A stretch of 64,000 nt of DNA, taken from Flavobacterium amniphilum. GTDB taxonomy: Bacteria; Bacteroidota; Bacteroidia; Flavobacteriales; Flavobacteriaceae. Positions 4,399-58,690 of the stretch are shown here, one piece after another. The position numbers and the translations under genes were made by a program. The DNA lies in NCBI RefSeq assembly GCF_023634845.1, contig NZ_JAMLJL010000009.1, positions 1 to 64,000 on the forward strand, given 5' to 3'. How positions within the stretch are numbered: position 1 is the stretch's first letter; each line of letters starts with the position of its first letter. Under the pieces are notes generated by a model. That model searched no databases and was not told the DNA's origin. It was given only the letters and a program-made list of their open reading frames with translations.

Positions 4399-6375
4399 AT
4401 GAAGTTTAATAAATTAGTTTTAAGTGTACTGCTAGGCGTAAATGCTGTTTCTTTTTCGCAGGAAATTAAGAAAGAAGTATTGTTTACGGTAGATAATAAA
4501 CCTTACTATACCGATGAATTTGCAAGAGTTTATAATAAGAATATCGACCTTGTCAAAGATGAATCGCAAAAAGATTTAAATCAGTATCTGGAACTTTTCG
4601 TTGGATACAAATTAAAAATCAATAAAGCGAATAAATTAGGATTGCAAAACGATCCGAAATATGTCAACGAATTAAAATCATATAGAAGTCAGTTGGCTAA
4701 AAATTATACTTCAGATACCAAAGTGACTAAGGCTTTGATTGACGAAGCTTATGCAAGAATGCAGAAAGAAGTAAGAGCATCACATATTTTAATTATGGTT
4801 GATGAAAATGCAGCTCCTGCTGATTCTTTGAAAGCATATAATGAAATTCTGGATCTAAGAAAACGCGCATTGGCCGGAGAGAACTTCGGTGATTTGGCAG
4901 CTAAATATTCCCAGGATCCTTCGGCAAAGGAAAATAAAGGAGATTTAGGCTATTTTTCGGCGTTTAGAATGGTGTATCCTTTTGAAAGTGCTGCCTTTAA
5001 AACTAAAGTTGGTGATATTTCAATGCCGGTCAGAACAAAGTTCGGATACCACTTGGTAAAAGTGGCCGATCTTCGTGATAACAGAGGAGAAGTTTCCGTA
5101 GCGCATATCATGATCGTAAAACCGAAACCAACCGGGAATGAATCGGCGGATTTGGAAAAAGCTAAAAATACAATTAAAGAAATTTATACAAAATTGAAGC
5201 AGGGAGAGAAATTTGAAAGCCTTGCAGCCCAATTTTCTGAAGATAAAAATTCCGGACCGAGAGGCGGTGTATTGCCAAAATTCGGTTCAGGCCAATTGAG
5301 TTCGGAAGAATTTGAAAACATTTCATTCGGATTGAAAAATGTTGGTGATTATTCAGAGCCGTTTGAAACACAATTTGGATGGCATATCATAAAATTGGTT
5401 GAAAAACATCCCATTCAGAAGTTAGAAGATTTAGAGCGTGAACTGGAAAATAAAATAAGAAGAGATGACCGTTCCCGTTTAATTACAAACTCGTTGAATG
5501 CTAAACTCCGTAAAAAGTACGTTGTTAAACGTAATGATAAAGTTTACAAACAGATTAAAACCGCAGTAACAGATGTTTATTATGAAGGAAAATGGGTAAT
5601 GCCTGCGGATACTAAAGATTTTGAAAAGGAATTGGTGAAAATACAGGACAAACCGGTATTGGCTACCGGATTCCTTAGAGAATTGGAGTCACAGCAAAAA
5701 TCAAATCTTAAAATCAAGCCAATCGGTAACCTGGTAGATCATTTGTATGAGAAATTTGTGGATAATCAGTTGAATATCTATTACAATGATAATCTGGAAA
5801 ATGAATTTCCCGAATTCGCCAACGTGGTGGAAGAGTACCGTGATGGTTTGTTGCTTTTTGATTTAATGGAGAAAGAAATCTGGAATAAAGCTAAACAGGA
5901 TACGTTAGGTTTGAAAGGTTTCTACGAAAAGAATAAGGGTAAATACCAATGGAAGAATAGGGTGGATGTAATTATTGCTTCGTCGACTAAATCTGATTTT
6001 GCCAAAAAAACACAAAAAATGTTGCAGTCTGATGCCACTATCGATGCGATTAAGGAAAAACTGAACACGAAAGAAGTGGTAAATATCATGGCCAAAGAAG
6101 AAACGTTTGAAGAAGGTAATGAGCATTTTCCTAAAAATGTTGCCTTTAAAACAGGAGTTTCTGAAGTATACAAGGATGGTGAATTTTATTTTGTAAACAA
6201 AGTGGTAAAAACCATCCCGGCCGGACCTAAAGCACTTGACGAAACCCGTGGTAGGGTAATTAATGATTACCAACAATTTTTGGAAGACAACTGGGTTTCT
6301 GAATTGAAAAACGAATTTAAAATTGCTATAAATCAGGATGTTTTTGAAAGATTGAAAACAGCAATGAAAAAATAA
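4399..6375 (+). CDS. Periplasmic peptidylprolyl isomerase with two parvulin domains
   Basis: 658 residues with a signal peptide (ends SFSQE). A SurA-like helical N-terminal region runs to about residue 130. The first parvulin domain (about 132-225) opens VRASHILIMVD and closes FGYHLVKV; the second (about 232-335) opens VSVAHIMIVKP and closes FGWHIIKLVEK. About 300 further residues have no domain I recognise. These enzymes isomerise X-Pro bonds and chaperone outer-membrane proteins in the periplasm. The next gene, 22 bases on, is a second parvulin protein, so the two probably cooperate on the many barrels and type IX clients of this organism. It is much longer than E. coli SurA (428 residues) and not an ordinary SurA orthologue. 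Confidence 0.88.
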   Translation: MKFNKLVLSVLLGVNAVSFSQEIKKEVLFTVDNKPYYTDEFARVYNKNIDLVKDESQKDLNQYLELFVGYKLKINKANKLGLQNDPKYVNELKSYRSQLAKNYTSDTKVTKALIDEAYARMQKEVRASHILIMVDENAAPADSLKAYNEILDLRKRALAGENFGDLAAKYSQDPSAKENKGDLGYFSAFRMVYPFESAAFKTKVGDISMPVRTKFGYHLVKVADLRDNRGEVSVAHIMIVKPKPTGNESADLEKAKNTIKEIYTKLKQGEKFESLAAQFSEDKNSGPRGGVLPKFGSGQLSSEEFENISFGLKNVGDYSEPFETQFGWHIIKLVEKHPIQKLEDLERELENKIRRDDRSRLITNSLNAKLRKKYVVKRNDKVYKQIKTAVTDVYYEGKWVMPADTKDFEKELVKIQDKPVLATGFLRELESQQKSNLKIKPIGNLVDHLYEKFVDNQLNIYYNDNLENEFPEFANVVEEYRDGLLLFDLMEKEIWNKAKQDTLGLKGFYEKNKGKYQWKNRVDVIIASSTKSDFAKKTQKMLQSDATIDAIKEKLNTKEVVNIMAKEETFEEGNEHFPKNVAFKTGVSEVYKDGEFYFVNKVVKTIPAGPKALDETRGRVINDYQQFLEDNWVSELKNEFKIAINQDVFERLKTAMKK

Positions 6376-57852: not shown

Positions 57853-58012
57853 AAAAAAAACCTACATTAGAAGAAATGTATAAACTCGTATGTACAAGTT
57901 TTGAGTTAACTCAGTGTTCAAGCTTCCTACTGAAAGGCTTGCTATAGTACCGAAGATTTACTCATTTTAAAATGTTAGTGTTGAGTTTATCAAATAATTA
58001 CTAATGTAGGTA
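57853..58012 (-). ncRNA. Probable 6S RNA (6S-Flavo type)
   Basis: On the minus strand the ends pair as a long-range closing stem: CCTACATTAG (58010-58001) with CTAATGTAGG (57870-57861). Inside it, ATAAACTC pairs with GAGTTTAT, then a mostly single-stranded bubble, and an apical hairpin CAAGC...GCTTG. A T run follows the 3' end (57860-57853). This closing-stem/bubble plan is that of 6S RNA, and the position just downstream of zapA matches the usual neighbourhood of 6S RNA genes in other bacteria. 6S RNA binds RNA polymerase as a promoter mimic. The family call is mine, without a covariance search. Confidence 0.6.
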
Positions 58013-58038
58013 GTATTGTTAGTATATGTAAAGAACGT

Positions 58039-58659: not shown

Positions 58660-58690
58660 CAAAGTTAGTATTCCTGTTGAATTATACCAA
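58660..58690 (-). promoter_or_regulatory. Promoter of the coiled-coil/zapA operon
   Basis: On the minus strand TTG (58690-58688), 20-base spacer and TAACTTTG (58667-58660), exact consensus, about 30 bases before the start codon. Confidence 0.72.

Follow-up and report, generated by a model that had tools for sequence, protein, structure and literature searches.

A boxA-like element in front of the 6S RNA gene behind zapA in Flavobacterium and other Bacteroidia

In Flavobacterium amniphilum a 6S RNA gene lies directly behind zapA, and a boxA-like element stands in front of it at the zapA stop codon. Across the class Bacteroidia this element is associated with 6S rather than with zapA or with rny, the gene for ribonuclease Y. 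6S RNA sits on RNA polymerase and damps transcription; as a class it is a stable transcript that is more plentiful in stationary phase. There is usually one gene per genome, and some bacteria have two. By its sequence the RNA behind zapA belongs to 6S-Flavo, a 6S family already described, and our observations concern its family, structure and gene order, the places of the promoter words, and the occurrence of the element together with its association with 6S. On these comparisons, we consider it fairly probable that the 6S RNA is cut from a zapA transcript whose polymerase carries Nus factors, as in rRNA synthesis. The features lie within one window, the whole stretch of DNA analysed (64,000 nucleotides; contig NZ_JAMLJL010000009.1, positions 1 to 64,000), and are collected in Table 1.

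Table 1. Features of the zapA-6S-rny region in window coordinates.
Feature	Position	Strand	Basis
TAACTTTG, sigma-A -7 box (TAnnTTTG) of the operon	58660..58667	minus	genus-wide TAnnTTTG count
Small protein in the zapB place, 96 aa	58341..58631	minus	ORF
zapA, 97 aa	58039..58332	minus	PF05164, E 3.6e-19
boxA-like element ACGTTCTTTACATA, immediately behind the stop codon of zapA	58025..58038	minus	resembles rRNA-leader boxA; outside the interval of the original prediction
6S RNA gene (6S-Flavo), whole structured unit	57853..58018	minus	R2 match and Rfam core RF01685
Closing stem, 5' arm	58001..58011	minus	helix 1: 99.8% of cells paired, 3 pairs changed on both sides
Inner stem, 5' arm ATAAACTC	57983..57990	minus	helix 2, nearly invariant
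Bubble, 5' side ACTCAACACTAACA, predicted pRNA template	57973..57986	minus	A1 columns show little or no variation
Inner stem, 3' arm GAGTTTAT	57880..57887	minus	helix 2
Closing stem, 3' arm, also terminator-like stem	57860..57870	minus	consensus fold and covariation count
U-run after the closing stem, eight U, intrinsic-terminator-like 3' end	57853..57860	minus	sequence
rny, ribonuclease Y, 520 aa	56269..57831	minus	TIGR03319, 642.9 bits

The whole unit of 166 nt (G000:C56:57853-58018) matched R2, our second covariance model, with 142.7 bits (E 2.5e-27), a score that carries the caveat that the window's own sequence is among the 32 from which R2 was built. A cmscan of the neighbourhood placed RF01685, the 6S-Flavo model, at 57882-57986 on the minus strand over model positions 1-108 of 108, with 78.3 bits (E 4e-13). 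This is below the Rfam gathering cut-off of 85, which is a curation threshold and not a biological trait. Only a tRNA was found in the window at the gathering level, so annotation at that level would miss the 6S gene. We attribute the score to a tight cut-off and not to failed membership, since 26 of the 101 genus genomes exceed it, including those of loci L003-L025, which have the same gene order. One strong RF01685 match was present in 99 of the 101 genomes (further matches there had E 0.17 or worse), and no match was found in G028 and G086, which are 92% and 85% complete, respectively. With 26 genomes passing against 99 clear matches, roughly three quarters of the 6S genes of the genus are missed by the Rfam cut-off. 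The F. amniphilum genome itself has one strong match, and we take a second, at E 1.6, as noise. RF00013 (6S / SsrS) and RF01693 (Bacteroidales-1) gave weak full-length matches of 21.1 and 21.8 bits on the same strand, covering the whole unit. The original prediction had named a probable 6S RNA downstream of zapA and pointed to the described 6S-Flavo motif, and had proposed a search with the 6S-Flavo and 6S covariance models; the full-length RF01685 match, the gene order and the covariation described below all agree with it. The 6S-Flavo family stems from the work of Weinberg in 2010 (PMC2864571). Elsewhere in the class, genome G146 has, in addition to its zapA-linked 6S, a lower-scoring R2 match of 53.4 bits on contig C93 at 5471-5686, a possible second 6S gene.

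The structure reads on the minus strand. The original prediction gave no strand, and the parts that it listed (a 10-base pairing of the ends, an inner stem, a bubble, an apical hairpin and a T run) are all present there. Together they form the 6S outline of closing stem, large bubble and apical arm, in an RNA class whose usual size is about 150-200 nt. The closing stem has 11 pairs, including a terminal A-U. The transcript strand folds at -36.5 kcal/mol, compared with -23.0 +/- 3.3 in 200 shuffles (z -4.05, no shuffle as low), and the plus strand has a z of -2.86. RNAalifold on alignment A1, which holds 93 distinct genus sequences (six identical rows were left out of 99), gave 36 pairs, among them the closing and inner stems of the original prediction, and standard pairs filled 98.8% of the pair cells. 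A lack of covariation in relatives had been named in advance as evidence against a 6S RNA; instead, changes on both sides were seen at 16 of the 36 pairs, with 220 such cells against 59.2 in shuffles. None of 500 shuffles was as high on the covariation measures, and 5 of 500 were as high for the number of further pair types. When the structure was slid along the alignment the paired fraction fell to 23-41%, a comparison that favours the real structure over the slid ones because a single alignment served both to derive the structure and to count its pairs. The closing stem is among the covarying helices, although it lies outside RF01685, whereas the inner stem hardly varies and is conserved but without proof by covariation. 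A T-run of at least five lies within 60 nt of a GAGTTT word in all 99 genus loci. By analogy with its family, the RNA would imitate melted promoter DNA and hold the housekeeping RNA polymerase, and release of the polymerase would come by copying a short pRNA from the bubble, whose 5' strand is, by comparison with other 6S RNAs, the predicted template.

The 99 genus loci comprise 98 of the 99 genomes with a match (G063 was left out, but it is represented in the class set by L169, which has the element) and G292 (L036). The order zapB-like gene, zapA, 6S holds in all 99, with rny next in 98; in L028 the rny match after 6S begins only at residue 143. The name zapB-like rests on position, because the 96-amino-acid protein has no ZapB match in Pfam; its coiled-coil character was judged by eye. 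The word TAnnTTTG has been reported as the sigma-A -7 box of Flavobacterium (PMC9723704). All 99 loci have it within the 130 nt that precede the zapB-like gene, mostly at -36, but only 3 of 99 have it in the 88-nt window before 6S, and we therefore reject, for the genus, a sigma-A promoter directly in front of 6S. Given these counts, the 6S RNA most likely belongs to the zapA transcript, as the original prediction had thought possible, and would be cut out of it. The same box lies between the 3' part of 6S and rny in 2 of 99 loci, and the rny of F. amniphilum is without one. Since such a box seldom stands before rny or 6S, rny would appear to rely on read-through or on another kind of promoter. 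A further suggestion of the original prediction, that the neighbouring RNase Y could process the RNA, draws no support from the gene neighbourhood: in the class loci rny follows zapA in 35 of 37 with 6S and in 92 of 100 without. The adjacency of zapA and rny is thus independent of 6S, and the argument from position for RNase Y as processing partner fails and was rejected, though RNase Y may process the RNA all the same. Counted over the class set as a whole (L159-L288 and seven others), rny comes directly after zapA in 127 of 137 genomes, whether 6S is present or not, which marks an old gene pair.

The boxA-like element, which the original prediction did not mention, is well conserved in the genus. 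In the leaders between zapA and 6S, ACGTTCTT is kept in 89 of 99 and ACGTTC[AT]T in 92 of 99, and we read the element as a putative boxA. In L036 it reads ACGCTCTTTACATA, which we take to recall the E. coli boxA core. The pattern ACGTTCNTN{0,2}ACATA occurs at three places in the 4.3 Mb of the F. amniphilum genome, namely the 16S leader, the 6S leader and a repeat array; the reversed pattern, as a control, gave 1 match, so that by itself the pattern has no more than fair specificity, and the comparison that follows is the stronger evidence. The third match, at C14:6653, was rejected as a candidate. It lies in a degenerate array that spans about 6400-6830 of C14 (1250-1680 of L156) beside a gene end, with units like CAACGTTAAACACACAAGGCT, and no RNA family match was found in this array. 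Three genus loci, L006, L010 and L022, are without the element and in L003 it is degenerate. In a genus tree that took 97 of the 99 loci, the first three form one small group (support 92, below the program's mark of 95) and L003 stands separate. Among the three, L022 has a TAnnTTTG box, TAGGTTTG, right before 6S, L006 has TAAGATTG, one letter off TAnnTTTG, and no such box was seen before 6S in L010. All three leaders contain, judged by eye, a short inverted repeat between zapA and 6S.

The link between the element and 6S extends well beyond the genus. Our class set of zapA loci consists of 137 of the 138 hits from 149 genomes searched (G161 was left out), and 6S lies behind zapA in 37 of these, from 15 families (30 found by R2 and seven from an earlier search). 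GTTCTT was present within -12..+45 of the zapA stop in 33 of the 37 loci with 6S, compared with 6 of the 100 without. Six control windows of the same width gave 0 of 37 each, and 5, 0, 2, 0, 2 and 1 of 100. The Fisher p of 3e-21 over the 137 loci overstates their independence, because loci of one family share ancestry; counted per family, the element is present at least once in 14 of 15 and in every locus in 11. R2 was built from many of the same 37 loci, yet this has no bearing on the element, because the model begins downstream of it. R2 finds 6S in 106 of 295 class genomes, so that "without 6S" here means without a match to R2, and three of the six element-bearing loci so classed have weak 6S matches (L171, E 0.13; L180, E 0.038; L217, E 0.045). 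The zapA-linked loci without the element are L168, L207, where 6S begins 230 nt after the zapA stop, and L038, together with L034, which has only GTTCATT. In the three loci of family f28 with a zapA-adjacent 6S (L255, L256 and L273) the element overlaps the zapA stop codon.

6S genes that lie away from zapA allow the element to be followed independently of the operon. We called a 6S gene unlinked when it lay on a different contig from zapA, although contigs could in principle be neighbours, or no less than 60 kb away, and took 25 such loci, a subset of the unlinked 6S genes of the class. Three of them (L291, L292 and L294) were identified by RF01693 only, L294 with a score below the RF01693 cut-off, and the RF01693 hit L298 was left out as partial (model 55-143) with no R2 match. 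Seven of the 25, from families f10, f13, f25 and f55, have GTTCTT within 80 nt, and none of these seven has TAnnTTTG within the same distance; six of the 25 have TAnnTTTG, none has both words and 12 have neither. GTTCTT is absent at 18 of the 25, so a 6S gene in itself can do without the element. INDEPENDENCE from zapA and rny, it goes with 6S, since 7 of 25 unlinked 6S genes have the element and rny occurs with or without 6S. GTTCTT also lies upstream of 6S in L345, L349 and L351, which belong to a group (L344-L351) left out of the 25-locus set. In L289-L292, Bacteroidales-1-type 6S genes away from zapA and the four loci with the strongest RF01693 matches, TAnnTTTG lies 22-26 nt in front with no GTTCTT within 80 nt; these TAnnTTTG-led genes represent an alternative route to 6S within the class. 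In L296 and L333 (family f3), where the strict GTTCTT is absent, the near-rRNA words GTTCATcGACATATC and GATCTTTGA stand before 6S.

The 16S rRNA leaders offer a second comparison. In the F. amniphilum genome the 6S element ACGTTCTTTACATA and the proximal 16S box ACGTTCATAGACATA are similar, not identical, and the 16S leader also has GAGTTCTTTAACATAA at -422. Among genus 16S leaders of at least 200 nt, 22 of 23 have a proximal GTTC[AC]TAGACATA (GTTC[AC]TAG), where the 6S element has GTTCTT; the idea that each genome's 6S element matches its 16S box was thus rejected for the genus, where only a likeness holds. A copy of GTTCTT lies further up in 8 of the 23, that of F. amniphilum among them. 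In seven 16S leaders (L126, L129, L134, L137, L144, L148 and L153) TAnnTTTG boxes stand in a row and GTTCTT lies well upstream of the proximal GTTC[AC]TAGACATA. In the wider class, 22 of 40 chosen genomes with 6S had a 16S gene, and 14 of these 22 leaders carry GTTCTTTGA 85-150 nt before 16S. Three leaders of family f41 have other GTTCTT forms further up, that of L371 has GATCATTGACA, those of L369 and L370 are incomplete, and the leaders of G232 and G370, from a sister genus, have GTTCATTGA (2 of 22). In these last two genomes GTTCATT stands in the 16S leader and before 6S alike. We regard this matched variant as a good sign that one protein may read both sites; it is no general rule, since the 6S and 16S words differ within the genomes of our own genus.

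We suggest that transcription would start before the zapB-like gene and then read that gene and zapA. As translation ends at the zapA stop, the nascent RNA would expose an rRNA-type boxA, to which NusB/S10 and other Nus factors would bind and then stay with the polymerase, and the Nus-carrying polymerase would cross the untranslated, structured 6S gene without Rho. Pairing of the closing stem before the U-run would form the 3' end of 6S, and the 5' end would have to arise by cutting. In rRNA transcription NusB with S10 binds boxA, and the downstream boxC is proposed to stay near the exit channel until the trailer pairs with it (PMC10250234). The 6S layout is like that of rRNA: the element precedes one arm (5') of a long-range stem, and the other arm (3') ends at the U-run. 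We speculate that the Nus complex might retain the first of these arms by the exit channel until its partner has been synthesized. Spacing gives this tether step no support. From the element to the closing stem the spacer spans 5 to 98 nt in the class, as counted in those 28 of the 37 linked loci that are R2 hits with GTTCTT, and its unpaired length matches that of shuffles (14.8 compared with 14.6); the idea of a constant effective spacing was dropped on the latter ground. The 23 spacers above 17 nt, five of 17 nt or less being left out of the hairpin test, have a mean hairpin z of -3.25, and 17 of them have a z under -2, so that most of these hairpins exceed chance in stability. Stable hairpins fill the spacer in L182, L183, L188, L190, L255, L256 and L273; in families f5 and f28 they are long and differ in part from each other. 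Counting against the proposal, Nus factors have been reported as not required against Rho at E. coli rRNA (PMC5725501). More tentatively, we put forward a broader reading that we hold to be possible rather than probable: in much of the class 6S would be an honorary rRNA, transcribed by an rRNA-type Nus antitermination complex loaded at boxA, often at the zapA stop, with the amount of 6S tied to the same elongation machinery as rRNA and perhaps to the same pool of free S10 (NusE).

Could the 6S gene instead have an ordinary promoter of its own, of which ACGTTCTT is a part, for example the CGT box of an ECF sigma factor? Motif SM6 of F. psychrophilum does have a CGT box in its -10 region (PMC9723704), CGTTC lies 22-24 nt from the 6S start in 79 of the 95 genus leaders that contain it, and the genus 16S box differs in letters from the 6S element. 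However, the boxA-like words in the genus 16S leaders printed lie downstream of TAnnTTTG boxes, and what precedes the 6S element is mostly zapA coding sequence, in which no conserved -35 word was seen by eye. The variable distance between element and stem (5-98 nt in the class) and the overlap of the element with the zapA stop codon in the three f28 loci also speak against a promoter, and we consider this explanation unlikely. A boxA might instead serve rny, with a Nus-modified polymerase reading through the 6S terminator so that rny is expressed. Such a role would suit the scarcity of TAnnTTTG between 6S and rny (just 2 of 99), and E. coli offers a known case of a protein gene under boxA-led control, suhB (PMC5725501). 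Yet among the 100 zapA loci without 6S, rny is next in 92 and the element is present in only 6, and the element also precedes 7 of the 25 6S genes away from zapA. As its main role we find service to rny quite improbable; read-through to rny may be a second effect of the element beside its role for 6S.

We give very little credence to the remaining explanation, namely a 3'-UTR structure that terminates the zapA mRNA, 6S-like in outline and without 6S function. Its appeal is that the RNA probably lies within the zapA transcript. Against it stand the full-length covariance match at E 4e-13, the conserved bubble and covarying stems, and the 6S genes of the same model that lie away from zapA in other families. 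6S RNA has, moreover, been detected in F. psychrophilum by RNA-seq (PMC9723704) and, with its pRNAs, in B. thetaiotaomicron (PMC7366714). We continue to prefer a 6S RNA cut from a zapA transcript made by Nus-carrying polymerase.

Compared with known systems, our 6S RNA has the same conserved words and pairs as 6S-Flavo RF01685, over a full-length match. It differs in that the RF01685 consensus line leaves the inner stem unpaired, and the 108 model positions stop short of the closing stem, which covaries here. RF00013 and RF01693 share its outline of closing stem, bubble and apical arm, but our copy is far under both cut-offs. In the zapB-zapA-ssrS arrangement of beta- and gamma-proteobacteria (PMC7641849) 6S lies directly behind zapA, as it does here after a small gene in the zapB place; the next gene there is ygfA or an EVE gene, whereas here it is rny, and there is no ZapB profile match. 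The available text of that paper makes no mention of boxA at zapB-zapA-ssrS. Nor did a literature search, with most subscription papers outside its reach, find a link between boxA and 6S RNA described; among the papers listed, only PMC2694808 contains both terms. As far as these searches show, a widely conserved boxA-like element before 6S would be new. If true, it would be a new target of Nus factors, would account for the expression of a zapA-adjacent 6S gene that lacks its own promoter box, and would link 6S dosage to the rRNA machinery. The word resembles the boxA of rRNA leaders and of E. coli suhB (PMC10250234, PMC5725501), and here too it comes before an untranslated RNA. Unlike rRNA boxA, the putative boxA lies behind the stop of a protein gene and before a small RNA, and in the genus its letters differ from those of the proximal 16S box. 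A leader signal for 6S that is like the one before rRNA genes suggests that both kinds of RNA may be made similarly.
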